In this document: one piece after another, positions 11,114 through 36,499 of the stretch
Layout: every line of letters begins with the position of its first letter
How positions within the stretch are numbered: position 1 is the first letter of the stretch
From: Pseudoscleropodium purum
Taxonomy: Eukaryota > Streptophyta > Bryopsida > Hypnales > Brachytheciaceae
DNA: 64,000 nucleotides
Reading direction: 5' to 3'
Assembly: GCA_963969395.1 (NCBI GenBank)
Contig: OZ017798.1
Location: 4,030,001-4,094,000 of the forward strand
The notes under the pieces: model-generated
Told to the model about the DNA's origin: nothing
The model's input: only the letters and a program-made list of their open reading frames with translations
The model's database searches: none
Translations under genes and position numbers: made by a program

Positions 11114-11155
11114 CAGGGTTGACGAATCTCAACGTCCACCCCAAAATAGCATTCG

Positions 11156-11275
11156 TTTTCCGGACGCACGGACGCTAGCGGACGCAGCGTCCCTCCCACC
11201 ATCGGAAGGCGGACGGGCGGGGCGAGGCGGACGGGCGGACAGACCAGACGGGGCGGACGGGGCGGACTTCGCATT
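11156..11275. promoter_or_regulatory. GC-rich GGCGGAC cluster A, left subterminal
   Basis: A dense run of GGACG/GGCGGAC/GGGCGGAC motifs starts 42 bp inside the left end in otherwise AT-rich DNA. A hairpin with 7-bp arms (GGACGCT at 11,170-11,176; AGCGTCC at 11,186-11,192) precedes it. By analogy with other DNA transposons, subterminal motif arrays are transposase-binding sites; here that is inference. Confidence 0.6.
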
Positions 11276-11569
11276 GCCATTAGTCATTAGAAAATTTTAT
11301 ATTGTTATGTAATTTGAATGTTACAGAATCAAAAATGAATGCATCCACGTAAAATAAGATGTACATATAAAAATATTTTTATACTCAAATGAAAATATAG
11401 CATCTTTATATATAAATATATATGTATAAACAAAATACATGAAAACATAGTTCCAATATCACTATTGAATCCTATACAATCTTTTTAAGATCTAAATCTT
11501 TCACATTCTTTTTTGTTTTTAAACAATGAAAGGACCATTGTTTTTAAAAAACAAAATTCTCCTCAAATC

Positions 11570-14500
11570 CTACTTTCTACTGGATGGACCACTACCTTCT
11601 CCCAAAACAAAAGGAAAATCTGCTGTACCGAGGAGTTTAGCAGATGATTGACGAGTTGACCGTTGTTGACTTGGACGGACTATTCGCCCTCCAGATTGAA
11701 TTTCGATGTCCACCTTATGAAATTGTTTTTTGGTTTCCGAAGAGAAGTCATCGTCCTCTTCACGCTTCCTTTTTTGTTTTGTTTTCGGTGATAAATCGAC
11801 TTCGTCTGCCTTCAAGGTTCTCAAGTTGCTCTCCACACGATCTACCATCGCTTGAACAACTTCATCATCTCCTTTCCCTTGCCATACTGTGAGGTAATCT
11901 CCATCCTGACCAATAGGAAAGCCTTCCAATGCCCTATAATATCGCCAATGCGCCTATCAAATGCTGCTGCCACATCTACAAATGAATGTCATGTGCTTGT
12001 TTGTCCATTTGTATCGTAGACAGCACGGACTTTTGTAGCCTCTTCCAACTTCGACAATAGAAGGGCCCTACCTACGAGGGTGTGGTCGTATGCCTTATAC
12101 TGCTCATCGAACTCTTTTTCATGGTTCACCTCCACCCAATTATTTTCTGGTCCTCTCTCCACTTTTTTATCTGGAAAACGAAAGAACTTTTCGTGTTGCA
12201 AGCTCCAATGTCCTCCCATGTTGCAACAAAACATTTCACGGGCCGCGTCACCTACGATTCCTTGAGCCCGCAATTCCACCTCTCTATTGTGAGTCATCCA
12301 TACATCCAAATCCAATGGTTGCTGAGATTCCTCGTACAAATCATGCCTCTGTTCATTTGCATTCCACCGGATTGGCTTCCTCCAATGTTGATAATTTTGA
12401 AATTTGTACGGCGCTTGATCAAGAGGAAGATTCCAACGATTGTACTCATGGCCTGGAGGCATAGCTTCCAAGATACCAAACATTTCGTAGAACCTAGCAC
12501 TCAATGGACTACGACACTTGGCACACACCGAACGAATGAGTGATGCTTTCACAATGCAAGTGACATGGAAAGTGTGGCGACATTGGCCCATGGTTACCGC
12601 ACCTTCCGGTCCGAAGAGGCCTTGGCAAAGGCTACAACAACCATCCAAGACTGGAGAGGCTGGATCACAAGCATGCACCATTTACTTGTCTTTCACATTG
12701 ATGTGTGCTGAAAGTGTGTTGTAAGGGACCCATCCTTCCTCTACTTCCAAGGCCCAATTGATGGGTGAAGCTTGGTCCTTCTTTGTGTGGTTTAACCGCT
12801 CAAACATGGCATCCATGTCTCCCCAACATGTGATCTCCGTATATCCCTTTGAAGGATGTTGATCAAACATAGTCTTGAACCAACTCAAAGAGCTTTGAAT
12901 GGCATCGCAATTTTCATTCGACTCCATTGCCAACGTTTGAAGACCTGCCATTGCTCGAGATACTACAGAGGGTCTATCTTGGAGTCTTTGTACCCATGCT
13001 AACCATCGAGACTCCAAGCCGCTAGATGGCATAAATTTCTTCAAATCCAAGTACAATTGCAATCGATTCAACTTGGATTCAACGATTCCTTTTGCTTCAA
13101 TTGCCTCCTCCAATTTATGCTTCAACTCTTCAAAATCACAACTCTCCGTTTGCGTCTCCGCATTCACGTAAACGGATGAAAGCTTTTCCATTGATGGTTG
13201 TTGTGTCGCTTTTAACATGCTCATGTCGTGACTTTCTTGTACATTCACAATGGCAGGGTTTTCGCTTGCTTCGGCCTTATCAAAAGGAAGAGAGAGCTTA
13301 TCTTCACTCTCTTGAGTCTCTTGACTGTCTCCGAGTACAATCACTGGTGAGATTGCAACCTCACTCGGATTCTTGGAGGTCCTTTGTAATTTTGCAATCC
13401 ATTTACGCATCTTCATCAACTCCTCCATTTGCCTTGATGATTGTTGATTTAAATGTTCAACCTCACTCTCCAAAGTCTTTAATTTCAACTCCAACATTTT
13501 GCACCTTGCTTCCACTCCTCCAAGGTCAACAATTTTCTTCTCATATTCCGCCAATTGTAGTATGTGAACATCTCTTTCTTCGAAAAGTGATCTGAAAGTC
13601 TTCGTGAGATTCTGAAATGCTATAGCACCTTTCAACATCTCTGGTGCCATGAAAGAAAACTTCTTGGCCAAATTCATAAAAGTCGGGGCAACTTTCGCTA
13701 AAAATTCAGTTGACATCGTCATCTTGAAAGCTGTATCAAGTATATGTGCAATATTCTTTGGATCTGCAAGTGGACTCATTGGAACAGCAGTAGCACTATC
13801 ATTGGGGTTAGACGATCCGCCTATTTCTTCATGAAGGTTAGCAAACTGAACCGAAAGCTTCAAAAGATTTTTCAATTGTTTTGGATTAGACATGTCTTAC
13901 AAGGTTCGATGTAGAGGACTTGGCAATGACGTTGTAAACGGAAACTCCTCCGCCCGCCTTTTACGCTCGGAACTCCATAATGAGGATATATTATCAATCG
14001 TCACACCTTGTCCACGAGGCGTATGTACTTTGTCTTCTAAACTTAACGCTGGATTAGATTCAATGCCTTGATGCATAGGCGGAGATTTGTAGACCAAACT
14101 ATCAAAACAATTTTTGGCTATCAGACTATCAATTGTAGCATTAGCCTTTGCCACTTTCTCCGCCAAGACTTCGTCTACTTTACTTTTTGAAGTTTCTCCG
14201 CGTTCCGTGCAAACATTGCCTTCGTTTATAGACTCCGTTTGCGTTTGTGCCGCAACATTTGGTGTAAAGGTCAAACGCGTTGGAGCTGTGGAAAAGACTT
14301 CACCCTCCTGCGCCTCTACATCTTTCTCCACATCTTTCTCCACATTTTTCGAAGAGCTTTCATTGATTGCTTTTGTTGAAGATTGTACAGACCGTAATTC
14401 TTCAACAATTGAGGCTTTCTCCACACCATCCGTTTTCACCTCAATAGTATTTTTTAATAGTTTTTTTGTTTCTCCCTCTGAATTGTACAAGTCGGGAATG

Positions 14501-14933
14501 TCCTTTTGATTGGCTTCAAGTAGAAGTGGGCAAGCTGTTGTTGTCGAAAACGCGCTCCAATCAATCTTGCGCCCTAAACCATACACGCCATGTTATAATT
14601 AATATAGCCTTTGCTTCTGCGCTTGTTTCCGAATAGAACACGCCACACCTCCTCAGATCGATGAACAAAATGTTTGTTCTTGTAAGTCCATGGTTTACAA
14701 CAAAAATCCCATGTATGATTCTTGTGCGACTCCTGAGGCCACAACTTGTCAATGTGGTACATTTTAACATAGGTCCTGCACATTTTTTATGTCCAATACT
14801 CCGCATCTTCATCTTCCCACCCGCTCTCTGCTTTAATTGTAGGGTCATTTAAAATGTCAAGCCGAAGGTCATGTGTAGCCCCCTTCACTTTGCTTTTTTT
14901 CTTGGCTTCGCTTCCCGGAGTCACCCCATCCAT
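11570..14933 (-). pseudogene. RING-H2 / coiled-coil cargo gene, interrupted
   Basis: Starting at ATG 14,931-14,933, one protein of about 1,120 codons can be followed with four in-frame stops (TAA 14,787-14,789, TAA 13,897-13,899, TAA 12,682-12,684, TGA 11,989-11,991) and two frame changes (near 14,580 and 11,950). Order: a basic N-terminus; a domain with YVKMYHIDKLW matching the cargo gene at 18,256; a disordered Ser/Thr/Glu-rich part; a coiled coil (about 13,500-13,300); a RING-H2 finger at about 12,655-12,500 (CSLC, then C-R-H-x2-H-x2-C, then CAKC), suggesting E3 ubiquitin ligase ancestry; and a Lys/Arg-rich tail that could be a nuclear signal. Three of the stops are followed within two codons by ATG in the same frame, so shorter proteins could be made. 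I call it a pseudogene, but the long open segments are intact. Confidence 0.6.
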
Positions 14934-15168
14934 TTTCGATCACCTTTGCCGTTCATGATTGTCAATTGGATTCAATAACCAATTGCAGTGAATAAAAAAA
15001 TCTCACGTGATAGTCAAAAGTGATGGCATCAACCGTAACACAGTAACAAAAGATAGAGGACCCCAACTCTCCACCCCGTAGGAGCAACTAGTGCATAAAG
15101 CAATAGTAGCACATCCAACTTGGCACCGAAGGAGAATTGAAGTAAGAAGAAATGAAAGTCACTCCATC

Positions 15169-15175
15169 CTTATAG
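15169..15175 (-). promoter_or_regulatory. Putative TATA box of the RING cargo gene
   Basis: The minus strand reads GGCTATAAGG immediately downstream of GC cluster B and 236 bp before the ATG at 14,933. The neighbouring GGACGGCT also occurs just downstream of the TATA box of the cargo gene at 18,256. Confidence 0.45.
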
Positions 15176-15176
15176 C

Positions 15177-15415
15177 CGTCCGTCGCCGGACCTGACCCGG
15201 ACCGCACGAAGCGGCCTCGAACCTCACGTCCGCCGCGCGGACCGACGACATCCGCTTCGGCAGCAGACGTGTTGTCCGCCCGTCGCTCTGTCCGCCCGTC
15301 CCGTCCGATCGCCGTGTCTGCCCTGTCCGCCTTCCGACGCCGTCCGCGCTTTGGACACGTCGACCGCCCCACTTAAACACTGACCGCTACCGGTGTCCGC
15401 CCAGCTGTCCATTGG
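15177..15415. promoter_or_regulatory. GC-rich GTCCGCC cluster B, upstream of the RING gene
   Basis: About 240 bp packed with GTCCGCC, GTCCG and CGGAC motifs, in sharp contrast to the AT-rich flanks. It ends a few bases upstream of the TATA box at 15,175 on the minus strand. Frames running through it (15,088-15,412) are Arg/Gly/Ala-rich and reflect base composition only. Confidence 0.6.
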
Positions 15416-17837
15416 TGCATCCTATGAGGCCATTATTACTCAAAAAGAGCGGTCACATTTCAAAAAAAAAATAGCCTAATAATCACTGCTAAATGAAGAT
15501 CAATGTAATTGGTTTATCATTTAAAAAAAAAAAATGTAAACCCTAAATCCTATACCCTAATTATCCTAAACCTTTTCTTTTCTCCCCTAAATTGTTTTAC
15601 AAATGAGGGGAATGTGGTTAAGTTGAATATGTTTGGATTATTTACTTATATTATCCTTCTAAATAGGTTTTGAGAAGATCTGAAGATGGTGGAGATTTTT
15701 TTAAAGTTCATTAGGAAATCAAATGTTTTGTAGAAATAATCAATTCCTTTTTCATCGTAAGCAAATGAAATTTTAAAAAAAGGCCCCAATACATAATTAG
15801 AATAACAGTTTAATGGATTTCAACCTCATGATATTTAATGAAAGGTTGTGATTTCTCATTAAAAGTGCATCACGATCTTCAAATGAACATCGAGTCTTTC
15901 ATATTTTTTAATGAAATTTTGATTAGATTTGAAAACAAAGAAAAAGAATCAATGTTTTAACTTTCAAATCATGTATGGCTATATTTTTCCTTAAAAACAT
16001 AGAAAAATTCGTTATTTGAGTTGGTTGAGTAGAATACATTATACACTTATACATGTGCTATATTTATTTTGAAGGATAATTCCAATATTCTTATTTTAGA
16101 TGTTTTTAAATATTAATTTTAAAAAAGAGGGTTCATTGTTTAAAGATCTAAAAAATTGACAAACATAATTTCTATTATAAATAGGAATTGAATTCGGAAT
16201 TCGAATTTTGAAATGATTCAAATGAACAAGATATTGATTATAAAATATTTTTTTGTTTGAGTTTTCAAAATGAATTCAGGAAACAATTGCAAACTTTTGA
16301 ACTTAGGTATATGGTATTGTTTTTCGTTTGTACTTTGTAGAGTATAATACTTCAATTTTAATCCTAAATAAATGAAAAAACTCCACATGAATGAAATGTT
16401 TTCATGTATTGCACAAAGATTTCTACCAATTACTATGATAATTAGATACATTGTTACATTTCATAAAATATTCTACATAGAAAGAAAAAATCATTTCAGT
16501 TTTCAATCATGATAAACGATGTCTTCTACTCTTTCTGTTATATGTTCATTTTGTATAACGTGTACATTGTACAATCTTTGAGAGCAGGGTAGTTCATTTT
16601 TCATTTTTGACTCTCATTGAAATAGAAAATATATTTGTGTTAATGTGTTTGGATTTTGAAATCATTATGTATTCTACAGTCTTGCAAGAATGCATCTTGC
16701 TCCTTCCTTTGAATCCTTTTGATATTTTCTTTTTTTTCCTTTGCTTTTTGTCTCATAGGGCTCTTGTTCTCTTTTTCTCTTCATTTGACCAACCTATTTG
16801 GCTTGGCTCTTAGTTTTTTTTTTTTTTAATACAATGGTTTATGCATATGTTATAAAAAATATATATTATTTATTTAAAATTAATATATTGATGAACAAAC
16901 GCATAGAGGCATTCAATGCTTTCACATTTAAAGTTATAAATCTATCATAAATCACTCTTGCAAATTTGAATCGAAAATTTGAAAATGTAATTACAAGAGC
17001 TTTCAATTCAATCAATTGCATAAATCATAAATGTTGAAATGCAACTTGTATGAGTTTAGCATCTATGAAGATTAATTCATGCCATCCACATGCAATTTTC
17101 CAATTTAATAAAATGCAATTGAGTACTTCAATTTTTTTCCCTCCAATTCTCCAAGTAACATTCACTTCATATCTTTCTCTATTTGTTTATCTATTTTTTG
17201 GGAACAAATGGAGAAACCATCTTTGTCTATATTTGAACATGCACTCTTATTTGATTGATGAAGAATAGATCTATGAAATATATAATCATTGATTTGTTCA
17301 TGTTGATTTATCTAATATATTTTATGTATGTATATATATTTATATATATATATATCATTAAAGGAGTATGAAAGACAAGATTGACAGATTGTATTCGAAT
17401 GTTGTTGATTTTGAAATGATTTAGTACTATATCATTTATAAGAATATTATAATAGTGTTATGTTATAATATTCCTAAGACAATTGCAACAAATATTAAAA
17501 TACATGCTAAGTTAGGTTTGTTAGCCTACCAATTGTTCATTAATAGACATAATTGAGTAGCCCCCTTAAATGAAACATTCAATATCTAATATCTTACAAT
17601 CCAAATGGTGGATTTGTCTAAAATTTTTTCCACATCTTTTCCAACTAATTTACTATAAGATCATACGGTTACATTTGCCCAAAAGTATTTTTCTTCTAAA
17701 ACTTGGTATTTGCACTACTAATGTTAGTTTTGAAGTGTTTTTAGTGAAAAGAACTTTAGGGGTTAAACATCTATACCGTGAGATTTTGAAAAAAGAACAA
17801 TTTACTTCATTGGATTTATGGTTTAGGGTTTAAGGTG
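15416..17837. other. AT-rich spacer inside the 25-kb element
   Basis: No gene. About 17,565-17,785 is a copy of a dispersed repeat also seen at about 48,090-48,310 and 54,190-54,420 outside the element (shared 'ttttttccacat(c/t)tttt' and 'agttttg(g/a)a(a/g)' blocks ending in 'aggggttaa'). The element therefore contains host-type repeat sequence. Confidence 0.5.
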
Positions 17838-18070
17838 AGCCGTCCGCCCTATCCGCCCTGTCCGCTCCATTCGCCTCGTCCTCCATCCGCCCGGTCCGCC
17901 TGATCCGGCGTCCGCCTTGTTCGCCCTGTCCGCCCCGGTACGGCTGTCCGCCCGGTTACGGCCGTCCGATTGACACGCGGACTGATGTGGTCCGCATGAT
18001 CTAGACGTCCGCCTTGGGGCGTCTGCATATATATATGGGGAGGCGGACGGCTCATCCCGAACAATCGTTC
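17838..18070. promoter_or_regulatory. GC-rich GTCCGCC cluster C with TATA box, upstream of 18,256
   Basis: A run of GTCCGCC, CCGCCC and GTCCG motifs on the plus strand, followed by a TATA box (TATATATAT, 18,028-18,036) and a GGAGGCGGACGGCTC block. This is about 190 bp before the ATG at 18,256, and a pyrimidine-rich stretch ending in CAG just before the ATG could be the acceptor of a 5'-leader intron. Confidence 0.6.
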
Positions 18071-18255
18071 TCTTTTGGAGTGGGCAGACCAGTGCCGTGG
18101 AAGCTCTACGCGCCCCTTCCGCTTTGAGTGAATGATTGTTGTGACATTGTTACAAATTTTCACAAAGTTCACGCTTGTAAAATTTTAATTAATTAAATCA
18201 AAATTTTGGTTCTTAAGCTTTCTAATTGTTTCATTCTCTTTGCTTCAGCTTCATC

Positions 18256-19518
18256 ATGCCGAAAGATAGAACACCCAAAAAAAGTAGTCGAAAGGGAAGA
18301 CCCCAATTGTTCGATTGGGATGCTTGCGCCGATCCATTGTGCGTGGGTGAACCGGGATGGGAAGAAGAATCAACAAGAGTGTGGGATTGTTCAATGTGCA
18401 AAAAGTATGTAAAAATGACTCACATTCAAAAACTTTGGCGACGTGAACGTGTAGAGCACCAAGCGCCACGTTGGGAAGGACAAATGTCTACGTGCCAAAG
18501 TGAGCACTTCAAACAACGATACACACAAGTGCATCGAGTTCTTGGCATTAAAAGTGCCAAATCAAATATAATGAATTATAATGTTATGGCAATGGTTTGG
18601 GCAGAGATTATACTCTACAAGGACGTGGACTGGCGTACCGCTACAGGTCGCAATGTGGAGAACTATACGCGCACGGATGCCGTTATAGATACACAGTGGA
18701 GGGGCGAAAGCGATTGCATGCCAGAGTGGTCCAATCAAGGTTATCTACAACAACCTTCAGTTGTTCTACGAGATGCTGAAGATGCGTGGACAGATGACGA
18801 TGATGACGATGATATGCAAGCGCCTATCACATTTGGAGTTAGACACGAGCGGTTAGAAGAACGAGAACAAATTGAATTCGAGCAACAAATGCAAGAGGCA
18901 ACACGCAGAAGCCTTCAAGATCGTGGACGGCAAGATAGGCATGGTGGTTCCTACGGACATGAACATGGAACGCGAGAATCTGAACATGGAAGAGGTGGTT
19001 CATACTCTGGTTACGATCCTCAAAATAGATATGAAGGTGGAAGAGGGAGCTATGGATCCACGCATTATGGTGGTTCAAGTGCAGTTGGTTCTCATTATGG
19101 CACTCCCCCTGAAATTGGCTCTCAAGGTGGAGTAGGTAGCTATGACAATACGCACTATGGTAGGTCTAGTAGATCTGGTTCATATTATACGACGCCCACT
19201 CAAGTGGGCTCTGAAGGTAGTGGAAGAAGTCATGTAACCTCGCAGTATAGTTGCTCTCTTCACGGAAGTGCCCAATACTATTCGGGATCAACTAGAAGTG
19301 ATTCATACGAGCATCATGGGGCCTCTTATTATGGGGCTTCAAATGAAAGAGGATCAGAGCCTACTACTCCGGTTCCTCCTCCCACTTTTGAAGGTTTAAG
19401 CTATGGACAAGGAGGTGTACCAAGTGGATATCACGGAAACTACGGAGGTGGTCCGTTCATTGGAGTACAAAGAATAGGCAGCGGTCAACAATTTGAGTCC
19501 GATTCAGATTCCGAATAA
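18256..19518 (+). CDS. Cargo protein with Cys/His domain and Gly/Ser/Tyr-rich tail
   Basis: An intact, intronless frame of 420 codons. The first ATG is at 18,256; the open frame continues 30 bp upstream but without ATG. Residues 1-126 form a domain with C24, C29, C45-x2-C48, C80 and H84 that could bind zinc, and the block YVKMTHIQKLW; the same block and following spacing (F-x-H/Q, W/H-R-V-L, Y-N-x-M-A) recur in the broken RING gene at 14,933. A run of seven Asp follows near residue 190, then an Arg/Glu-rich helix. The last ~190 residues are low-complexity Gly/Ser/Tyr with degenerate repeats of the type GSYxxTHYGxSS, prion-like in composition. Function is unknown; the fold suggests nucleic-acid or protein binding and condensate formation. 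It is the only cargo gene without a disabling change. Confidence 0.7.
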   Translation: MPKDRTPKKSSRKGRPQLFDWDACADPLCVGEPGWEEESTRVWDCSMCKKYVKMTHIQKLWRRERVEHQAPRWEGQMSTCQSEHFKQRYTQVHRVLGIKSAKSNIMNYNVMAMVWAEIILYKDVDWRTATGRNVENYTRTDAVIDTQWRGESDCMPEWSNQGYLQQPSVVLRDAEDAWTDDDDDDDMQAPITFGVRHERLEEREQIEFEQQMQEATRRSLQDRGRQDRHGGSYGHEHGTRESEHGRGGSYSGYDPQNRYEGGRGSYGSTHYGGSSAVGSHYGTPPEIGSQGGVGSYDNTHYGRSSRSGSYYTTPTQVGSEGSGRSHVTSQYSCSLHGSAQYYSGSTRSDSYEHHGASYYGASNERGSEPTTPVPPPTFEGLSYGQGGVPSGYHGNYGGGPFIGVQRIGSGQQFESDSDSE

Positions 19519-20116
19519 AAAAACATGCAAGTATATAGTGAGCATGTATTTGCTCAATTTTCTCATTTTTACTCTGACGACAAGTATAGAGCACTAGATT
19601 AGTAGAAGTAGTACAAAATTTTAAATGAATAAAACAATTTTGAACAATAATTTTGTTCACTTTTTCAAAAAGTGTTGTGTAATAGTGTACACCAAGTATG
19701 TATGTAAGCAAGCATATTGTTGAAGACATCATTGTATTATTTTATAATAGCGTTGATGTATAAGGCTATAAGCGACTTTGATAAATAATAAAAATATGAA
19801 GAAGAAATGTAATTTTATAAGAGCCATATTATGTCTATTTTTGAATTTAGCATTCGAGGTTAAATATGTACTAGCATGGTGTGTATTTTGAAATTATTGT
19901 TGTGTGTTTATTACATTTAGAAACTCATAAATGGTATAAATGTATTTCTAATTAATTTATGAAAGATTGATTGATTTGAATATTTGAAATTTTTTTATTT
20001 TTCATTCAACAATTGCTAAAAACTAAAATGATTTCTTATTGGTATGAAGAAATGCCTAAATTAGATAATTAGTGGTTCTTCTTTAGATTCTATTTTCAAA
20101 TATGGAAAATAAATTG
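19519..20116. other. AT-rich 3' flank of the cargo gene
   Basis: No gene. It probably holds the 3' untranslated region and AATAAA-like signals (for example at about 19,627 and 19,785). Confidence 0.4.
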
Positions 20117-20390
20117 GATCGGGTGGACGCTTGATTTGTTCACCCGTGGCCGTCCGATCGGGTGGACGGGGCTCGAGGATTTCGGGGAGGCAGATGGCCG
20201 ATGCGTCCGCCACCCGCAGCTCGTCCGATCGGGCGAACGGTTTGGGGCTGTCTGATGGGGTGGACGGGCCGTCCGTCGCTGCCCGTCGGATTGGGCAGAC
20301 GCCAAATTTGTCCGCCCGTGGCCGTCCAATCGGGCGGACATGGCTGTAGGGTTTCAGGGAGGCGGACGGCCGATGCGTCTGCCAGCCGCG
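20117..20390. promoter_or_regulatory. GC-rich tandem array D, left half (split by the CACTA insertion)
   Basis: Units of about 150-170 bp begin at 'ccgtggccgtcc' (20,144; 20,316; continuing at 34,183 after the CACTA element) and contain GTCCGATCGGGCGGAC-type inverted motifs. Once the CACTA element is removed, the array lies directly upstream of the kinase-like gene at 34,440. Confidence 0.65.
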
Positions 20391-20890
20391 CACTACAAGA
20401 ATATAGGCATTCTATGACTACGTAAATGACTACTTTTTCAGTCATTTTGGACATATATGACTGCTTGTGAAAATGGGGCTCTGTAGTCATTGTGGACGAG
20501 TCCTTTAGGACATGACTGCATTCTTAATATTACCATCCGTCATCGTACAAGGAAAGTTTTGGATGAATTATTCCTACGTGGCCTCTGACGTGTTCAAGTC
20601 TGTATGACGTGGCACTTGGGTTCGTTAGTCATAGTGTAATCATTTTTTAGTCCCACTATAGTCGAGTTCTGATGGTGGGCTCCACTTAGTCCACATGGCT
20701 ATTGCTGGTAGGCGGTTCAATCCAATGTTCAGACGTTCAGATGGACAACAAGTTCTGGTGTAGTTATTCCCTAGTAGGGATTCAGTTGAACTACAGTCAT
20801 GTCATTGTGTATTGTTGCAATTGCAACTGCAGCTTAGTGAAGTGGTAGTTAAACAGTAGTCAGTCTCCTATGCTTAAGTGCTACTGCAAT
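20391..20890. repeat. CACTA left subterminal region with AGTCAT/TGACTAC repeats
   Basis: Many copies of TGACTAC, AGTCAT and TAGTCAT occur in both orientations. Matching motifs crowd the right end (33,720-34,080). In En/Spm such short subterminal repeats are the TnpA binding sites. Confidence 0.75.
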
Positions 20891-24500: not shown

Positions 24501-27500
24501 ACTTTTGCACGCTCTCATGCTTCTGTTTTTCCCAATCTATGATACTCATGTCAAGAATACGTGGCACATATGTCCTCACTGAGCTGTCCCAAGCATTTTT
24601 CCCCACACAACCAGCATCAATTTCTCCGTTGTCGTGCTGCGAAACACTGCATTATGTAAAAATGCGTGTTTATTTAGATTTGATTGGATTTGAATTAGCG
24701 GTTAGTTGTTTAGAAATTTAAATGACCAAGTAAAAGGTGGGGTCGTGGTGAGAACCACGGTTTGGGGGTCAATGCGGGAGCTTGTTAACGATCTTGGGGT
24801 GCCTGCATCTTGTCACTATAGCTCAGGGGTAGGGTAGCGGGTCGGCTGTATTTTCCTGCCTCACTAGCAGTGCCAAGCCGTGGGTTATCCGGACCAGTCG
24901 ACGAGCCCGACGGGGATCGAAACTCGGACCGGTCGGTTAACCATCGACGACTTTAACCAGCCGACCAAGTCTACGACTTGGCGACTGGTTTCGACTATCG
25001 AACGGTTTTGTTACCTCCATCGACCTGTCACTTCACCATTTGGCGTTTATTTTTCCATCTAACTAGTTCCGTTACTTATTTTACCCTTATTAGAATTTTA
25101 TTAAGTATTTGAGTTGATTTGGCCTTGTTACATAGTTGGAAGGTGAAGACTGTTTCACGTTCTTTCTTAAGTTTTACTTCTAGTTAGAAAAATAAAAACA
25201 AAGCCATTTGGCTAAGGTTTGGAGGTCCACCCATGTGAAAGTGGTATGGGCTGGTCCATGTGGGACTTTGGCATCTAGGAAAAGACTTGGGAAGTTTCCT
25301 GAAGTCGGTTTGGTAGTGTGGAGTTGGAGTTTTGGAGGGGGATTGGGAACCGAATGTTTGGAGGGGGAGATCTCATTGTGTGTGGAGAATTTTGTAATGA
25401 AATTTGGAGCTTTTGTGTATCATGTTGTGATGTTTCCAAAAAGTCCTTGCTTGATTGATTTGAAGTATGCATTTGAGAGTTGTGCTTGTTTGAGTGGAAG
25501 AGGGTCTGCTGCCTCCCATTTGAAGGGACAAAGACTTCGATCGACCAAAGAAGACGGACAGGTCTCTTGTTTGCTTTGAGATTTTGAGGAAGTGTAGAAG
25601 AATTTGTTAGCTTTCTAAAAAGCTATCATTTGAGTTATTTGGAGCATTTATGAGTGAGTTGTGAGTGTCGAAGTGAGGAAGGGTCTGCTGCCCTTGATTT
25701 TAAGGGCCAAAACTTCGGGAGTCCATGGAGGTTGGACAGAGTGTTAGATTGAATTGAAATTTGGAGGGAGAGTAGAAGTTTGTGTTAGCTTTCCAAAAAG
25801 CTATCACTCACCTGATTCGAACCTTCGGAGTGACAGTGGTGCATGATCGAAGTTCAGCCAAAACACTGAAGATTTGAAGATAGAAGAATCGTGTGTTGTG
25901 GCTTGTGGCTTGTTATTCCTAGCCGGTTTTGGAGGCTTGTTGTCATTTATTGTTATTCCTAGCCAGATTTGGAGGCTTGTTGTTTTCAAATTTGCATTGT
26001 AAACCTGTTGCGAGCCGTGGTTATCCAATAAGCGCTCCATTTTGTGTTTGTGGCGGCGAAGTGGGGTTAATGGCCCACATGGTCGATCTTATTTGTTGTT
26101 CCCACTGGTGAAAGGCGCTTCCTGGTCACCGTGGGTTTGAAGTTTAGGATCCTTTCCCCCGGACAGCTCAGCTCGTGGTCTGGCTGTCCCGTTTTTCCCG
26201 TCCGAAGCCGTGGTTTCTTATCACATTCTCTAATCCCTGACCCATTTAGAGCCATCACAGGATAGGCCAACGGGGAGCAGTTCCGAGACGGCAAAGAAGA
26301 TTCAACGACCAAATTCACGAACATTTACGACAGTGTTTCACTGCGACAGTGTTTTGTTCAGACAGTGTTACGATCATTCCTGCGCCAATTCTAACCGCAG
26401 CCAGAATCCCCGTGATTTCCTGAGGCAGATCGCTCTCTACCCGACACCGTCATCAGTGACTGTGATGTTGTGGGGTTTTTTGCCAACCCTGCTCCGCTCC
26501 CTCCTTCCCTCGTCATAGATGCTGCGTTTCAGACGTCGCGATGCCCTCCCCACGCTATCTGAAGACATTTTGCCTGCATTGCTAAAGTCTTGTCCTAGAG
26601 AATTTCCCACCCACCTGTCCGAATAGGGAACTGAGGAAGGTTGTGGCCCAGCACTCCACTGCGGTGGCTGCATCCATTGGCCATTAGGCACCCATTGCCA
26701 ATTCCCAACATATGGAAGCCCTGCTTGCAATGGTACTTCTAAGGCGCGTTGTGCAATTGGAGACTGCGGTCGGTGAATTTGTATAGGGGACCGCATTTGC
26801 ACGTCGACTCTCTTACGCTTCTGCCTTTTGTTGATGAGGTTCTCCTCAGCGTCCAAGTCATCGTCCTTTGAGTCGAACACTTGCATCGTACTAGCTTTAC
26901 CTGCATCCACGTCCAATAATATTTTCATCAGCAACCCTAAACCGCTCAAGTCCTTCCCTGTGTGGCATTGCTCTTCCATCTTGCAAGTAAAGAAGAAGTA
27001 CAATTGTGAGTCAAATCTGCTTCTCTATCCAAGAGTTTTACTTGAACTACAACGTGTATACAGTGAAGTAAAAACCGCCATCTTTTCTAACAAAACAAAT
27101 CACACTATAGCCGTCACAGAATGCAACTTCTATACGTACCATTCTCCACTACGATGACGTTTACAAACCCTACTCAACGTACGAGGAGGCCCACACCGCG
27201 AAAAGGGCAAATTACCTGTAGGCGGGACCTCCGAGGTCGCCTTGCTCTGAACATGTGCACACATAATTGCTAGATTCATCATACCTGCGGCAATACCTTC
27301 GTCGTCTGTTTTGGTTTCGTCGAAAGAGGAAGCCGCATCTACACTCATTTTGCCCCTCCTCTGCACGCGCTTGCTCCTACGTCGTGCATTTCCCCTCACT
27401 GGCAACGTCGGATGACTTCGTCTGGGCAATCCAAAGTTCTCTCTTGCAATGTGACCCCTTCCCGCATCAGCTGCTTCAAGCAATACTTCTTTCTGGGGAT

Positions 27501-28199
27501 TCAAATCCTTTGTTCTACACACATGAATTCACAGCTTACTACAGTCCAATATGTCGCTACGAGGTAGGTCAAACAAAATACAAGAACGCATGCTATCGTG
27601 AATGTCGACAAACTCTCTACTCCAAAGTCCGTGCCTCAGAACGGGTTTAGGGTTTCGCTAGCCTTTGCAGCCTCCGTACGCCACCATACAGCCGCCAAAC
27701 GTGTGCAACGTGGCGGTTTTCTAGTACTCCTCAACTTATTCAACTAGTTTATGCCCACTAAACTAATGTATGACTCTACAGTGACTCGAGTGCTACTAGA
27801 ATAACAAACGCAGTCATACATGAGTAGTACGCTGCAACTGGAAGTCTACTATACAATGACTGGACTCGGCTTCCGAGACCAATTAATGTAGCAATTGAGC
27901 AAGAAACAAGAAAAGCGGACAGAAATTGCACAAGAACTCCAGTGCATGAAGAACAGAAGGCTGAGGACTTACATTCTTTGGATGGCCACTTCCATAGGCT
28001 TCAGTTTTTGTCGTAAGAGCTGCACACGCTTGTCTCGTTCTAATTCGTAGGCAGACTTTCCCTCGTCTCCTATTGCCGTCTTCTCTTCCTCCATCTGCTT
28101 CTGAATTAGATTAGTGAAATGCCCGTAGTGCCCAACAATAGTACTGTAGGGATTGACGTTCACAAGCAGCGCGTTACCAAGAAACAAGGGTATGCCCAC
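21387..28199 (-). CDS. CACTA tnpA-like accessory locus (multi-exon, uncertain joins)
   Basis: Minus-strand coding blocks at about 28,199-27,969, 27,522-27,130, 26,979-26,437 (starts ATG after a good acceptor; Lys/Arg-rich, then Trp/Pro-rich), 24,635-24,205 (Transposase_24-like), 23,719-23,466 (short coiled coil), 23,291-22,020 (FCP1/HAD-like) and 21,584-21,387 (Transposase_23-like). Whether all belong to one transcript is not certain, and some ends are only approximate. In En/Spm, TnpA binds the subterminal repeats and works with the TNP2-type transposase. Introns contain further AGTCAT-type motifs and, at 24,740-26,436, an unrelated LTR-like repeat. Confidence 0.55.
22020..23291 (-). pseudogene. 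FCP1/NIF-like HAD phosphatase domain in the CACTA element, catalytically degenerate
   Basis: From ATG 23,291, about 423 codons with two in-frame stops (TAA 23,199-23,201, TAG 23,103-23,105); the part from 23,102 on is open. After a Lys/Pro-rich linker the HAD core shows LLIFNIHGTLLD where active family members have D-x-D-(E/G)-T-L, so both catalytic aspartates are replaced (N and H). Later motifs fit the FCP1 homology family: RVFLRPWLQPFL, FWGSKSQSY, and NTVVVDNNASR near the second acidic site. It lies between the Transposase_24-like and Transposase_23-like exons. It is probably a captured host domain, perhaps used for binding rather than catalysis. Confidence 0.6.
24205..24635 (-). CDS. Transposase_24-like (Ptta/En/Spm) exon
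   Basis: The segment contains W-x-x-L-x-x-Y-W followed by a Lys/Ala-rich helix and an R-x-x-x-x-x-F-x-x-x-G pattern (residues corresponding to about 24,300-24,220), preceded by an R-N-A-I-K-R-Y-L block. This is the layout of the Transposase_24 family found beside TNP2 in plant CACTA elements. The exon appears to start after an acceptor TTTCGCAG| near 24,635. Confidence 0.65.
24740..26436. repeat. LTR-like dispersed repeat, copy 2, inside a tnpA intron
   Basis: Its right third matches 1-720 of this window. It also contains an internal near-duplication: 'agggtctgctgcc' at about 25,500 and 25,681, and 'gttagctttc(t/c)aaaaagctatca' at about 25,608 and 25,785. It is non-coding. It separates the Transposase_24-like exon from the exon at 26,437, so it inserted into the CACTA element or was incorporated with it. 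Confidence 0.6.
24823..24926 (+). other. tRNA-promoter-like (A box/B box) segment
   Basis: TAGCTCAGGGGTAGGGTA resembles a tRNA A box, and GGGGATCGAAACTCGG about 80 bp later resembles a B box (GGTTCRANNCC). The spacing is too long for a tRNA gene, and no cloverleaf was found. A tRNA-derived SINE or a chance match are both possible. Confidence 0.2.
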
Positions 28200-29314
28200 C
28201 TTTTTCCTGCTCCATCACTATCTTGCAGGCGCCTAAGTGATCGGACGTTTGTCACAGGAAGAGAAGTGATGACTGCGTGCCGCAGCTACGATCAAATAGT
28301 AGAATGCAAAAGAGCCGGCTTTGTCGTGAATCTTAATTTTGCTGCCTTCCTAGCGTTGTTGAAGAAATTCCGCTAAAGTGAATAACGAAGAAGCCTATAG
28401 TAGCCAGTACTCTGTGTCGCTATAGAACGACGGCAGAAAATCACCTCTTGATACGGTAATAAATGTCCACTGAATTTGGTCCTTTTCTTGTGGACGTCAA
28501 TCATGAGAGCAATGTCCGTACTTTGCGTCGGTGATAATTTTGTGGGATTGCCTTTGAGGGCACGGAGTGTTAGCCTTTTATTGTAGAAATTGCCTTTCAA
28601 TGAATTCTGAATTTCTTAAGTGCTTTCAACCCTAAACTGCTCATATGTCTTCAAAATTATGCCGAACTTACCTCAAGCACTAAATGTTGTACTTCACGAT
28701 GCTCTGCAAGATGATCCGACAGTCTTAATTTGAATTACTGTGCTTTCAAAAGTTCTTATATTTTCCCTTACATGCCATGCTGTGGTTCCTTGTGCATATG
28801 CTACATTGCCCATGTACATTCTCCTTCAGTTTCTTGTTGTGTTGAGAAGCCATGTGAAATGAAGGGGATGCTATGTACATGTCAGGAAAATTGTATTCAA
28901 GTGTGGACTTCCCCTTGAAATTATACGGACTACGTCATTGTGCAATGAAGTAGACAAGGTAAAGACTCAAAGTGAACCCTGCGAAGTCATTACTTTGTTT
29001 GAGAATGAGAGACGTTGGTAAATGACTAGGTATTAACTCGTTGAAGTCATTCTGTAGTTGTATGTAGTTGTCACTCAGTTGACCTTCGGGCTCTTCAGTC
29101 ATTTTGTACTTTCATGAAGTTGGCTATGAGTTCACAACAGTCATATCATAGTCTGTTTTCATTGTATGTGAAGAAATTTAAATGTGGTCCGCTTGGAAAT
29201 TTTCTGGCATTCCATAATTCTATTGTCAAGGTTAGTACTCAGAAAAATTTTGGAACTCACATTTGAAAATGACATCCTCGCGTAGTTGTTGAAGTTCAGA
29301 AGTATACGATCAAA

Positions 29315-32300
29315 ATGCTACCAGCGCGCTTGCCCCTTTCAAATCCACAAAGGCAACGTCTCCGCGATGAGAGATTATGGATTCGCGAGTTTCAGCGAGC
29401 TCGTCAACTCAATGCTTCCAGAATCCATTGCCTATGCATGGATTGCCAAGGTCAACACAAGCTGCTCATAAAAAATGTGTGGGAACACCTCATGCGAAAT
29501 GGACGGCATCCACGGTTCAGGGTGTGGAGAGGGCCTGGCACTCGAGACTTGTCCGACAATGAATGGGAGGACGAATTCTGGGGCTCCCATGACAACTGTA
29601 GCGTGGGTGTGGATGCCCAAGTGGATATGCGAGGGATCCTTGAGAATGCATTCACTCATGACGATGGGACAAATGATATTGAAGAGAGAGTTCTTGAAGA
29701 AGTGGCACAAGCCTTCATGACCACCGATTCACTGCACGATGAGTGCAGCATTGGGTCAATGCAAGGCCCACCAAAGAATGACGAAGGTCTTGCTGATGGG
29801 GTGCTTGTCGGTGAAATTGGAAAAGCCGCTTGGGAGGACCGACAGTTTGATCCTCGCCACTTACAAGAGGCAATTCAAGATCTTTTTAGTGGCGCCAAGT
29901 GCACAAAGCTAGCAACCACAATTTTGCTTATGAACTTGTGCACAGTGCATGGAGTCAGTAATACCTTTGCGGACGAGTTGTTCAATATCTTGCATGGTCA
30001 CATATTGCCTGACAGGAATTGTTTGCCGAAGAACTACCACGCAGCATGTTCTTTGACACAGACATTGGGACTTGCCTACACAAGCATACATGCTTGTCAA
30101 AAAGGTTGCATCCTTTTCAAAGGCTTACATGCAGATGCAATGCGGTGCCCTCAATGTGATGGGCCTAGGTATAGAGATGAAGAAAGGAAGATGTTACCTA
30201 TGAAGGTTCTGAGGCACTTCCCCATCATACCAAGACTACAAAGAATGTTCAGGAGCCCCAGCATTTCAAAACTGATGCTCTGGCATTCCGAGAATAGGAG
30301 CGATCAGGAAGGCGGGGATGGTTTGGTCAGGCATCCCTGTGACTCAAAGGCATGGCGGCATTTTCACGAAAATGTTGACCCCACTTTTAGCAACGACCCT
30401 AGAAATATCCATTTCGCTCTAGCCGCAGATGGGGTGAATCCGTATAAGCAGAATCGGTCCAACTAGTCTACTTGGCTGGTGCTTCTACTGAATTATAATT
30501 TGCCACCTTGGTTGAGCACGAAGAAGTTCTTCATTATGTTGTCTTTATTGATCCCGGGGAGGCAGTTTGTCACCTGTGAAAATTTTGATGTGTACTTAGA
30601 GCCACTAGTAGAAGAGTTATTGCAATTGTGGGAAGGTGTTCTAGCTTATGACATAGCAAAGGAAGTCTCAGCAAGAGCATTCACATTGCGGGCCATGCTC
30701 CTATGGACGATTCATGATTTTCCCGGCTATGGGGTGGTTGGCGGATTTTCCCATCAAGGATTTGCTGCTTGTCCTTGGTGCAGTTCAAACTTGGGTGCAC
30801 AACACTCTATGGAGCTGGGGAAGCAGACATATGGTGGGACTAGGCGTTGGTTGCTAGAAAGACACAATTACAAGTCAACTCACATGAAAGACTTATTTGA
30901 TGGTTGTATGGAGAATCGACTGAAGCCTCCACGAGTGACGGTCGAGGAACAGCTATAGCATGCAGCCGACTATGAAGCATGGAAAGCAGCGCCAAATCGA
31001 GAAGCAGGATCAAGGGACCCATCTAAAGTGCATGGTGTCAAACGATTGAGCATCCTGTACAGGTTGCCTTACTGGAAGGTAATGTTGTCTTCAGACGCTA
31101 GTAATATGTGTCAAATTAAGTATTGAAGACTTTTTAGAGTTCAATTCTGATTTCCACGAACAAGTTAATGCAGTTTACTGATCTAGTAGCCTATTGTCAA
31201 ACCACTTTAGATTGTCTGTCTATGGTATTGGCCTACAAACTATGCATATAAAGAACTTGTTAATTGAGGTGCCGATGTTCCAGTGTGGTGGTCGCAGACT
31301 ACAAGTACAATAATGAGACAATAGGATAGGTGTTACTTAGTTGTGAGGTGGACAGTAGTGACTTAGCGGTGACTCTCTTTCAACTGTGTCTGTCCTACTA
31401 ATTAGTCATTTCTTAGACGTGCCATAGTCATGCAGTGAAATTATAGTTATTCATTGCTCCAGCGCAGACAACAATTCACGATTGAATTCTTATACCGTCT
31501 CCTGAGTGCATGCAGAAATTGCTTATTCGCTACACTTTGGATGTCATGCATTGCGAAATGAACTTGGCAAAGAACTTTTTGAAAACCATCACTGGGAAGA
31601 AAGACACTATGAAAGTAAGGCAGGACTTATAGAGGCGGAATATACGACCGCATTTGTGGCTAACTGTGCACCCAAGGAATCCAATGAAGATGGTGAAACC
31701 TGCAGCACCATATGTATTGAGAGATGCAGAGCTTGAAGTATTCTTAACGTGCATTGAGTCTTTGAAGACACCAACAGACTATTTCTCTGACTTAAGCAAG
31801 CACTTACGTAAGAAAAACTTTGGTGGACTGAAGTCTCATGATTATCATGTCTTAATGTAACAAATATTACCATTGGCTTTGAGAGGTTTGATGGAACCAG
31901 GTCCCAGGATGGCTATCATAAGGATGAGTAAGGTTTTCAGAAGAATTTGTACCAAAGCATACAATCCTGTTGAATTCTCTTCCTTGGAAGCCGATGTGGC
32001 GGAGACCATGGCTTTGTTGGAAATGGAATTCCCACCGTCATTCTTTGACATAATGACACACCACCCATATCATTTGGTTCAAGAGCTGGACTTATGTGGT
32101 CTAGTCAGCGCAAGGTGGATGTACCCAATAGAACGGTACATGAAAACACTGAAAAATCATGTGAGGAATTTGGCTCGCCCTGAAGCATGTATGGCTGAGG
32201 GATACCTCAAAGATGAATGCATTGGATTTGTAACGGAGTACCTACAGAGCTTTCAGTTCACAGAGAGACGTGTCTGGGATGCTGACGAAGAGTATGGTGA

Positions 32301-33361
32301 TGCAGAGGAGGTGCTACAGGGCGAAGGAAGACCGTACATGATGACTCCTGCACTCCGGGATGTGGCACATCAGTACGTTTTGGCCAATGTGTCTTGTTTG
32401 CAGCAATATTATTTGTAAGTAGACCGTATACCTTATTTGTTTTCTATGCATATGTACGTTAGGCACAGATGTACTAGTTTTTTTATTTTATTTTCTATGT
32501 CTTCCAATGGAAAAGAATGTGCAATACCAAGATGAACAATGCTGAAATACTCTATGTTAGTAGCAATGACAAAGTCAAGTGCGAGTTGTTGTGTAGTCAA
32601 CTGTGAGTCACAGCTAGTCATTGGATGACGGCTCTTACTATAAAATGACTAAGTGCAGTTGTAACTGAGTCATTGATCAAAAGAAACCACTAATCACCTA
32701 AACCGTGAACTCCTTTTGCTGTAGTTGAAATCTTGTAGGAAGTGGTCTCTATTTTGAGTTCTATGTATTGGAGGTTCACATTTCTACCTTCAACTATAGG
32801 AATTGGAAGGCCGAAGTTCAGCAAGATGCGACTATTCCAGCATTTGAGGACTGGCTCCCGAATGTAGTATAGAACTCGGCATTCGATGTGACAAACCCTG
32901 ACGACAAGGATCGATTGATGCTCATCAGAAAACCATCACAGAAGGCATCAAGATATACGAAGATGAAATCATTTGATAGCCATTTCAGAGTAGATGATGG
33001 AGATACACATCGTTTCCAAACATATAATTCCGGAGTAGCTTTGGTTTTTGAAGTACCAACTGCAAATGCAACGGATGTGTCCGTGAACTACGTCAGAGTT
33101 CTAAAGGACATATTGAAGCTTGACTATGGGCCACTGCATACACCAATCATTCTTTTCCGATGCCAATGAATGAAGACTACAGATAATAGAGGCAATGCAA
33201 CGTATGTCCGCGATGATGCTGGCTTTTTGATGGTCAACTTCAAGCACAAACTACCATGCATGTCGGAGCCCTTTATTTTTTCCAACCAAGCAACACAAGT
33301 CTTCTTCTCTGATGTGCCACAGAAACCAGGATGGAAAATAGTTTTGCAAAAAGAAGCATGA
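29315..33361 (+). pseudogene. TNP2-type CACTA transposase with several nonsense codons
   Basis: Three exons can be followed: 29,315-31,078 (donor AAG|GTAATG), 31,516-32,414 (acceptor TGCAG|A, donor GTAAGT) and 32,800 onward. Diagnostic TNP2 blocks include CLCMDCQGQ near the start, ADGVNPYKQ at 30,426, STWLVLLLNYNLPPWLSTKK at 30,467, the LRAMLLWTIHDFPGYG block at 30,688, LDVMHCEMNL across 31,538 and YNSGVALVFEV at 33,028. In-frame stops lie at 30,464 (TAG), 30,956 (TAG), 31,630 (TAG), 31,858 (TAA, where family members have Gln), 32,870 (TAG) and 33,167 (TGA, where members have Trp), with no frameshift seen. The gene appears inactivated by point changes only. The frame stops at 33,359-33,361 or, reading on, at 33,526. 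Confidence 0.85.
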
Positions 33362-33719
33362 GCTAAAAGGGAGGTGTTGGATAGTCCTAATGTATTCATA
33401 AGTACCACTGTAGAAACTCCTGGTCTTACAGCTCCAAAAGTGGTGTCAACACCTTCACAAGTACCGTCTCTAATTGGGGCCATTGATTTGTCACCTAAGG
33501 ACAATTTGTTAGCACATGCAATATACTAGGTTGATGAGCATTCTTTTTCTCTAGGAATTATGCTCACACCCTTCCATTTGCCTTACACAACAAAATGAAA
33601 GAGGTCTTCTACATGTGGATGACTATAATTTTGTTTCAATGCATGTGAGTCTTTTTGAAATTCATTTTCAAGACCGTAGGATGCCTTGATTTCCACTAAT
33701 CTCATGGAAAAGAATATAA

Positions 33720-34103
33720 TTTCAAGTTTGAGTATGTTGACTGTGGACGTCACAGTCATCTCCTAGTACAGATCAGTCATTCCTTAGTAGGAAGAAGTCA
33801 TTCATGCAGGCAAAACACAGTCATTAACGGACTACCATACAACTGAGTATGTCAACCGCAAGTCGTCATCCGCCCACGTCATGCCATTGAACAATGCGCT
33901 CATAAAAAACCAGCAGATGAACGCACTGTTTGGTCATAGTTCCAACAGTCTTCATCTCTACGTCTGCAAAATGACTATAAAATGACTACCTTACAAAAAT
34001 GTCGTGTAAAATGTGAAATAATAGAGCTCTAGTCATAGTGTAGTCATTTAGGACATCCAGTCATACTTTAGTCGGTTGTGCCGGACAGGTTTTTCTTGTA
34101 GTG
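33720..34103. repeat. CACTA right subterminal region
   Basis: Clustered AGTCAT, TGACTA and GTAGTCAT motifs as at the left end, finishing with TTCTTGTAGTG at 34,093-34,103. Confidence 0.75.
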
Positions 34104-34260
34104 GCGGCCCGTCTGATCGGGCAGATGGTTTGGGGCTGTCCACCACTGCCCGTCGGATCGGGCGGACGCCAGATTTGTCCGCCCGTGGCCGTCCGATCGG
34201 GCGGACGATTTGGGGCCGTCCGATGGGGCGGACGGGCCGTCCGCATTGTCACTTTTGCTT
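34104..34260. promoter_or_regulatory. GC-rich tandem array D, right half, upstream of the kinase-like gene
   Basis: It begins with the second GCG of the CACTA target duplication and continues the array of 20,117-20,390. GTCCG, GGGCGGAC and CCGTCCGATCGGGCGG motifs end about 180 bp before the ATG at 34,440. No clear TATA box was found. Confidence 0.6.
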
Positions 34261-34439
34261 TGCCCCTTGTGAATGCAAGGTAGAGCGGAGAGCTTGGTGG
34301 TTCATCCTCCATTGGCTCCTTTCCGAGGCAAGGCAAGAGTGGTTTATTGGGGCCCCCTTGTTGCCAATTTTTTGGACACTTGCACGTGAATTCAATTTTA
34401 AATTAAAAAATTTGATCTATATCAATTTCATTTGTCACG

Positions 34440-35939
34440 ATGCCAAACAGGAAGAAGAAGGTTGCGAAGCTAAAATATGGAGAGGAACCATTAAACTTGG
34501 AGGTAGCTCGCCAAAGTCCTTCGAAAGAATGCAAGAAATTCATGATCGAGCGCATCGTTCAATTTTATGAATCGGAAACAACATTGTCTTTAGACAATAA
34601 GTACATCAGATATCAAAAAGAGTGCGTGTCTAAATTCAAGGTAGACATGACACAGATGTTGTTGGATGTATTGAATGTGGCGAAGTGGCATGACAAAATG
34701 CATAAAACGCACTTCACCAAATGTTTGAAGAACAAGGTTCATGATGCTTTGTGGAATTCCAAAGTCATTTTGGTTAAATATGGCAAGGAATATCAACCCA
34801 ATGACGCCCAGTTTGAAGAAGTGATTCTAAAAGCGAACTTATTTAGAGGGCGATGTGCTCCATTCACCAAAAGGCACAATGGAATTGGTTCGATTGCTTG
34901 GTGGAAAAACAATGATGGAGTTGCTGAAGTGGAAAAGACCAAACGGCACCTCATAGCACTTCTAGATACAGCACGCGTGATTGTTGTTGATAATAGAACG
35001 ATGAGAGGTGGATATGCAACGATTCGAAAGGTTCGAATTGAAGGATGTTCAGAAATACTTCCTTATTGGGAGTTTGTGGCAAAGAAATCCATTCACCACC
35101 AAACTCGACCTGATCTTGCAAAGTTAGAACATCAAAACAAATCAATGGCTGTTCAAATTCCACACGCGAGTATGATACGGTTTGCTACGGTGCACGGAAC
35201 GACGTGTGAAGGTTATGCGTATTGGTGAAATGGTGGAACTCTTCGACAAATGTTGAATATGGATAAGGACTATCCAGACAACATTCAAATTCGTTTGATG
35301 TATACGAATCCAACCGAAGAGGAGGTTGTAAAAGCTCACCTTTTAGGGCGATATCGGAAGAAGCGCACAGAGCTTACATGGGCCTTTATGCATATAATGT
35401 ATGCTGTGCATCTTGCTGGACATTTGCACAATGATTTTTCTCCGAACAATATCTTGTTGCATTTTTCAAAGGATGAATCACTTGTGTACATTGAAGTTTG
35501 CGATTGGGGCATGACCACCTTAGCTTCTCAACCAATGAAGTCTTTGTACACATTCACATCAACAGATGAGATGAAACAGACTTTGCAAAGGAGATGGTGG
35601 CATTGGTGGGTGGATCCACGTATTGCATATTTGCATAAAGCAGGTGCAGATGTAGAAGTCATTCTGATGTATTCACATAAGTCGGAAGAGTATGCCATTC
35701 GAAAAATTGCTCGGCGGATGAATAGAAACATGTCAGAGGCGTATTTCAACTTGCTACTTAAAACACCTAGTGCGACACAATTTGCCTTTCATGACTTTGC
35801 AAAAGTGTTTTATGCTTACTTGAAGCGCATTTCTTCGAAGACTGACGATGAAAATACTAGTTTGGCCCATGCGATTACGCAATTTTTTAATACATATCGT
35901 TGGCCGATGCCAGATGAACATTTTTGCCATTTATATTAG
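34440..35939 (+). pseudogene. Divergent protein-kinase-like cargo gene with an in-frame TGA
   Basis: From ATG 34,440 the frame runs 262 codons to TGA at 35,226-35,228 and then continues in the same frame to 35,939 (499 codons in all). Kinase landmarks in order: a glycine-loop-like RGGYATIRKV (about 189-198), a lysine in EFVAKK (about 215), a hinge-like NGGTLRQML just after the TGA, the catalytic loop HNDFSPNNILL (Asp about 332, Asn about 337) and CDWG in place of DFG (Asp about 355). The key Lys, Asp, Asn and Asp are present, but HRD is HND and DFG is DWG. An N-terminal ~180-residue helical region is unrecognised. A TGA in the hinge would remove the whole C-lobe unless read through or sequence-specific to this copy. 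It sits downstream of GC array D. Confidence 0.65.
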
Positions 35940-36339
35940 ATTGGTAGTGCAGAAGTAGTAGTTGAATAGGTTATATAGGCATTAAAAATTAGTTTAGAAA
36001 TATAAAGTTGGAATGAAAAAAATTATATGTGCAATTAGCCAAATGTGCACAATGTATGGTATTCTATATTAAATTCAATACATTTTGCCCATATTGATTA
36101 TGTTTGTATTTGTGTTGATCTTGATTTTTTAAATAGTATATATATATATTTGAAGTCACAAACTTTTTTAGTTTGCCTTCTGAAAATGAATTGGAATTTT
36201 TTCATAGTTTCAAGACTATCATGGACTCGTGGTCAAACTTTACAATCTTTCAACTTATAAGAGACATTGTTTTAATAACAAATCGCGAACCATTGCACTT
36301 CATTTAACATTTAATTGTTTAAAGATTAAGGGAGTGACT
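35940..36339. other. AT-rich 3' flank of the kinase-like gene
   Basis: No gene. About 36,211-36,275 resembles a piece of the dispersed repeat at about 55,270-55,335 ('tggtcaaac(t/a)tta(c/t)aatctttca'). Confidence 0.4.
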
Positions 36340-36490
36340 GCGGGGCAATTTGGGTAGGGCGGTCGGGGGAAATAGGGCCGTCAAAGCGGACGGGGCGGAC
36401 GGGCGGGGCGGTCGTGGCGGACGCTGCATACGCTGGAACCGCGAATGTCAACGGACGCTGCGGACACAGCGTCCGTGTCCGGACGTCGTG
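36340..36490. promoter_or_regulatory. GC-rich cluster E, right subterminal
   Basis: GGGCGG, GGCGGAC and GGACGCTG motifs, with a hairpin of 8-bp arms (GGACGCTG 36,453-36,460; CAGCGTCC 36,467-36,474), matching the organisation of cluster A at the opposite end. Confidence 0.6.
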
Positions 36491-36499
36491 TCAACCCTG

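Follow-up and report, generated by a model that had tools for sequence, protein, structure and literature searches.

The element at positions 11114-36499 of a 64,000-nucleotide stretch of Pseudoscleropodium purum DNA (GenBank assembly GCA_963969395.1, contig OZ017798.1, positions 4,030,001 to 4,094,000; "the window" below means this whole stretch) is very probably a damaged copy of a high-copy coding satellite of the hAT superfamily, which carries three genes (A, B and C) and is served in trans by the transposase of a sister family. This reading is built on the architecture, ends, target duplications and abundance of the satellite, on the modules it shares with the sister, and on the hAT transposase which the sister encodes. 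An initial annotation, made from the letters of the window, had described a 25-kb cargo transposon without an obvious transposase. The cargo genes are indeed present and the satellite's open reading frames (ORFs) that were scanned gave no transposase, but the 25 kb includes a separate nested CACTA element with a Tnp2-type transposase of its own, and the true size of the satellite copy is 11,670 bp.

The terminal inverted repeats (TIRs) of the element, CAGGGTTGAC (11114-11123) and the inverse GTCAACCCTG (36490-36499), match at 10 of 10 positions, and an exact 8-bp duplication, ACCATAAA, borders them at 11106-11113 and 36500-36507, as first annotated. Once the ends are fixed, the chance of an exact 8-bp match is about one in 65,536, assuming equal base frequencies. 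An 8-bp duplication together with a short TIR that has a CAGGG-like start, which is typical of the hAT superfamily, was found in satellite and sister alike. The similar subterminal blocks noted earlier are GC-rich blocks, present at both ends. The genome searched comprised 313 Mb in 52 contigs, and all counts from search lists given here are lower bounds. The 201 bp of the left end were found at at least 40 scored places, with 83-92% identity outside the element itself, and the 201 bp of the right end also at at least 40.

The 25,386 bp between the outer ends are a composite. Positions 20391-34103 are a 13,713-bp element which starts CACTACAAGAA, finishes TTCTTGTAGTG, is flanked by the 3-bp target duplication GCG (20388-20390 and 34104-34106) and encodes Tnp2-type domains (PF02992 and PF13960 above the Pfam cut-off, PF13963 slightly below), ie the ends, duplication length and transposase of the CACTA class are all present. 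Its insertion point is within a GC-rich array. Ten other satellite copies were compared, all matching the window to the left and right of this point, and none carries the insert at the corresponding place; their fetched DNA contains no match to 20267-32236 or 33589-34103, and 32237-33588 is matched, somewhere within the fetched DNA, in one of the ten. Without the insert the window copy falls within the range of the other ten (11,524-11,904 bp). A single true 25-kb cargo element would agree with the exact outer ends and duplication, but the CACTA ends, GCG duplication and transposase belong to the inner 13.7 kb itself, and 10/10 other copies lack it at that place, which leaves this explanation a probability next to nil. 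The 25-kb size was rejected because the nested element accounts for 13,713 bp of it.

Further copies sharing these ends and genes, which the initial annotation had called for, were found. In the ten copies compared, the 8-bp duplication was exact in six and matched at 7 of 8 positions in one; in five, one terminus or both had a changed base. Searches with the RING part of gene A gave at least 150 scored places (89-95% identity outside itself), those with gene B at least 98 (88-92%) and those with the N-terminal part of the kinase, gene C, at least 142 (85-89%).

The source of a transposase is provided by the sister family. The hAT dimerisation domain was found at at least 150 scored places, and a search with the sister transposase gave at least 60, with 91-94% identity outside itself. 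In 22 of the 142 kinase matches listed, a hAT domain lies approximately 6 kb upstream of the kinase on the opposite strand, counting places from the domain search and the transposase search together. Four such loci were fetched and the left flanks of three were completed. Copies h1 (9568 bp) and h41 (9704 bp) have exact 8-bp duplications, that of h1 being GTTGAAGA, and h40 (9571 bp) has a duplication matching at 7 of 8 positions. The CAGGGTTGAC termini are the same as in the satellite, and ORFs from two copies match DUF659 (1e-31) and Dimer_Tnp_hAT (PF05699, 1.7e-9). This transposase takes the place of genes A and B. The left 110-151 bp are shared with the window element, as are the central block at 15315-17813 (approximately 94% identity with three of the four sister copies; in the fourth, 195 bp) and the kinase-bearing right part (93-94%, all four). 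No transposase family was matched among the satellite ORFs scanned against Pfam, and the ends are common with an element that encodes one, as in a non-autonomous hAT element. The hAT-like character read from the terminus and duplication length is supported by the sister, and a new type of mobility is not supported.

The sister appears to have been mobile recently. On contig C1 there is an inverted hAT-type twin of h1, 99.8% identical over the left 853 bp, 99.1% over 585 bp close to the right end and 91% over the last 126 bp. It lies in GC-rich DNA, with a left-end match of another copy nearby, and its exact duplication, GGCGGGAC, is distinct from that of h1. The twin is an independent insertion, and it is this combination of near-identity and a separate duplication that points to recent movement.

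The distribution of the genes agrees with two almost exclusive architectures. Among the 98 gene-B matches listed, 39 have a gene A partner and 37 a kinase partner. Among the 142 kinase matches listed, gene A accompanies 38, gene B 37 and either of them 52, and none has both hAT and A/B upstream. Seen from the transposase, a kinase is near 13 of the 60 transposase matches and 15 of the 150 hAT-domain matches listed. The initial annotation had asked whether the three genes always occur together within such ends. All of eight gene-A matches without a partner have the left terminus near the expected distance (five exact, two with a changed first base, one with a changed last base), but of four partnerless kinase matches one has the right terminus, one a partial subterminal match and two nothing. 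Nor is the kinase confined to the satellite, being also present in the hAT sister.

The three genes predicted earlier (RING-H2, Cys/His with a Gly/Ser/Tyr-rich part, and divergent kinase) are present (Table 1), single window ORFs matching RING and kinase families below the Pfam curated cut-offs. Gene A is broken in the window into ORFs at 13897-14592, 12682-13896, 11989-12681 and 11570-11953; its longest frame, 1137 aa, is found in one copy (c40b). Gene B is likely to start at the Met of MPKD, position 18256. The 505-aa frame of gene C is open in five of the ten other satellite copies. The RING-H2 ligands C772, C775, C790, H792, H795, C798, C809 and C812 are invariant in 8/8 aligned proteins. 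In the kinase, K223, E242, D340, N345 and D363, which we take to be the catalytic positions (lysine, glutamate, catalytic-loop Asp and Asn, and DWG Asp), are invariant in 22/22 aligned proteins, made up of the query and 21 of the 60 proteins it matched. Genes A and B have an N-terminal domain in common (122 aligned columns, hhalign probability 99.7%).

Distant homologues were found for all three, 7 for gene A (identity down to 31%), 12 for gene B (down to 38%) and 60 for gene C (down to 28%). Those of gene A include full-length proteins of 1140 aa (46% identity) and 1120 aa (45%) with coverage of 98-100%, and homologues of gene B at 42-46% identity cover 90-97%. Some are multi-copy, with 59, 65 and 126 member sequences behind P0067, P0079 and P0037, respectively. 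Long-term constraint on A, B and C is read from the existence of these distant full-length homologues, which suggest accessory genes kept over a long period. The A homologue P0063 and the B homologue P0076, each 46% identical, both list a longest contig of 17,649 bases, so that the two are probably linked in another genome; none of the 60 kinase homologues lists that length. Kinase homologues P0037 (locus tag KC19_VG055000, on a 110.5-Mb contig) and P0023 are from Ceratodon purpureus, and the 126 member sequences suggest that the kinase has been amplified there. Another, P0002, is 73% identical and filed in a Bacilli metagenome bin, which is probably contaminated by plant DNA.

These data also bear on the idea that A, B and the kinase together form a transposition machinery not yet recognised, the hAT-type copies being an offshoot which gained a transposase. 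The high copy number and the probable linkage of A and B elsewhere are in its favour, and neither gene B nor the N-terminal Cys/His domain shared by A and B has a Pfam match. The matches of gene A, on the other hand, are confined to RING-like and weak coiled-coil-type families, and a hAT-encoding sister has the same ends and 8-bp duplications; we give this explanation a very small probability. The KDZ transposase domain (PF18758) had no match in the genome, nor in any of 14 control genomes.

The GC-rich arrays are the least conserved parts of the satellite, with a mean pairwise identity of 0.78-0.93 compared to approximately 0.94-0.98 elsewhere (per 250 columns, ten copies). Counted on both strands, the motif GGCGGAC is present 27 times in the element minus the CACTA insert, and not at all in the window outside 11107-36507. 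The satellite and hAT architectures switch at the arrays or adjoining them. A mechanism may be proposed on this anatomy. The sister, of about 9.6-9.7 kb, would supply a hAT transposase acting on the common CAGGGTTGAC ends and giving 8-bp duplications. Genes A and B would have replaced the transposase module in the satellite, with the central block, kinase module and both ends kept in common. Modules set apart by variable GGCGGAC-type arrays could be exchanged by recombination at those arrays. The sister transposase, the sole source seen, is the most likely means by which the satellite is moved. Genes A, B and C would serve the element, most likely by protecting it from host silencing or removing that silencing, perhaps as anti-silencing factors acting at the GC-rich arrays; alternatively they might act on the arrays together with the transposase.

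Several observations weigh against such a satellite. The trans-mobilisation suggested by the initial annotation has gained a hAT-encoding sister with the same ends, but the movement itself is something we infer, and array-mediated exchange is deduced from the coincidence of switch points with arrays. The recent twin is a hAT-type copy and not a satellite copy. The 8-bp duplication is absent in three of the ten other satellite copies examined, and 68 of the 142 kinase matches have no listed partner. A hAT match lies within 12 kb, in any orientation, of 3 of the 98 gene-B and 6 of the 150 gene-A matches listed. A hAT match with the same orientation lies 12.3 kb upstream of one listed gene-B match, a distance greater than that from gene B to the left end. 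One listed gene-A match, on contig C45, is followed 4.5-6.4 kb downstream by a hAT copy that has its orientation. At this locus the flank of gene A (window 15069-15146) passes directly into a left terminus and the hAT-type copy, and this copy, of which one end was seen, is read as a nested insertion because its own left terminus lies inside that flank.

Decay within the genome also has to be considered. Many copies of the three genes contain stops. Across 11 copies each of A and B and 15 of C, single-copy substitutions look neutral (ratios of 0.90, 1.23 and 0.93 for A, B and C, respectively), and variants common to several copies indicate only weak constraint (0.88, 0.57 and 0.57). The ratios for the hAT transposase, from four copies, are 0.81 for single-copy and 0.94 for shared variants. 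Since the single-copy variants look neutral, most changes seem to postdate insertion. Decay in many copies, neutral-looking singletons and the failure to find a transposase in the scanned ORFs are in favour of a Pack-type element, in which a hAT element had passively captured host genes or pieces of no function to it. The full-length homologues of A and B, the multi-copy state of some homologues and the retained key residues argue otherwise, and the probability of such passive capture is small.

Table 1. Positions of features in the window (strand. = none assigned)
Feature	Positions	Strand	Remarks
Target duplication, 8 bp, left copy (ACCATAAA)	11106..11113	.	
Left terminal inverted repeat (CAGGGTTGAC)	11114..11123	+	
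Left GC-rich subterminal array (GGCGGAC-type motif)	11123..11299	+	
Gene A: N-terminal Cys/His domain, coiled coil, RING-H2	11570..14990	-	approximate limits, projected from copy c40b
GC-rich array, gene A to central DNA	15145..15427	-	
Central block, mostly AT-rich, between divergent genes	15315..17813	.	common to three of the four sister copies
GC-rich array preceding gene B	17815..18032	-	
Gene B: Cys/His domain and Gly/Ser/Tyr-rich tail	18226..19518	+	430-aa frame, open in window
GC-rich array following gene B, divided by CACTA	20112..20413	.	
Nested CACTA (En/Spm) element, 13,713 bp, not part of satellite	20391..34103	+	ends, GCG duplication, Tnp2 domains
NIF-type phosphatase ORF within CACTA	22020..23102	-	
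Tnp2-type transposase pieces of CACTA (Transpos_assoc, Transposase_21, DUF4218)	29273..32418	+	
Rest of divided GC-rich array, preceding gene C	34070..34289	.	
Gene C: protein kinase	34416..35939	+	in-frame stop at 35226-35228 in window
Right GC-rich subterminal array	36317..36507	+	called by GC content; extends past terminus
Right terminal inverted repeat (GTCAACCCTG on + strand)	36490..36499	-	
Target duplication, 8 bp, right copy (ACCATAAA)	36500..36507	.	

Some features of the copies were noted in passing. At locus L073 (C45:21402000-21403700) a hAT-type left terminus stands exactly where gene A and the array adjoin in a satellite copy, and elements of the hAT/satellite family seem to insert into one another. 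Gene copies less than 45 kb apart, among the matches listed in four overlapping lists, form 25 inverted and 3 direct pairs. The inverted pairs are on many contigs (eg L057, L058; C1:2658498-2690152), and two that were checked have arms at least 99.9% identical over approximately 2.0-2.2 kb, where the fetched stretch ended, with a spacer of 2.6 or 3.7 kb. They may reflect local reinsertion, inverted duplication or assembly error. At C41:16713929-16726145 two gene-A copies face each other in a space insufficient for two whole elements; judged by coordinates, the pair resembles a fold-back element with two left ends. The NIF-type phosphatase ORF of the nested CACTA element has at least 113 scored places in the genome, approximately 50 being full-length at 92% or above, and that element is perhaps another transposon carrying a regulatory enzyme as cargo.

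To our knowledge the VANDAL elements are not hAT transposons. They encode VANC anti-silencing proteins and have noncoding tandem repeats that diverge fast, a likeness to the satellite in both element-encoded accessory proteins and fast-diverging noncoding repeats (PMC10398659). For A, B or C, anti-silencing is a proposal, and the likeness is one of anatomy, ie the arrays and the shared Cys/His domain. The fungal DNA transposons that carry TET/JBP genes, hAT7 among them, have a dioxygenase gene and make 7-bp duplications (PMC12730594). An extra enzyme gene beside the transposase is the common feature; the present system differs in its kinase and RING/Cys-His genes, in duplications of 8 bp and in having a coding satellite that lacks a transposase.

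The satellite and its sister may also be placed beside two familiar arrangements. Pairs of hAT elements of the Ac/Ds type have a short common TIR, 8-bp duplications, transposase supplied in trans, clusters of subterminal motifs and local reinsertion. The satellite and sister likewise share a short TIR, 8-bp duplications and subterminal motif clusters, the supply in trans being here a deduction and local reinsertion a possibility. In contrast to Ds, the satellite is not a deletion derivative; at 11.7 kb it is longer than its helper of 9.6-9.7 kb, and it retains three genes which are full-length and open in some copies. Pack-type elements are non-autonomous and carry non-transposase genes, as does the satellite, but they carry them as fragments, whereas some satellite copies contain the genes whole, and these have distant homologues of full length.

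The usual view is that dependent transposons lose their genes. The dependent hAT element described here exceeds its helper in length, has at least about a hundred copies and carries three genes, and for gene A and the kinase the key catalytic or metal-binding residues are conserved in distant homologues. We tentatively suggest, while judging it rather unlikely, a two-part selfish system in a plant, in which a kinase-carrying hAT helper is accompanied by a longer satellite that has exchanged the transposase for A and B, whose proteins have a Cys/His domain in common (that of A being also a RING-H2 protein) and lift silencing family-wide at GGCGGAC arrays present in helper and satellite alike. 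If that were true, satellite and helper would depend on each other, and selection would keep the satellite coding. The finding makes two ideas testable, namely that satellites may supply what their helper lacks, for example anti-silencing, and that modules may be traded at GC-rich arrays.

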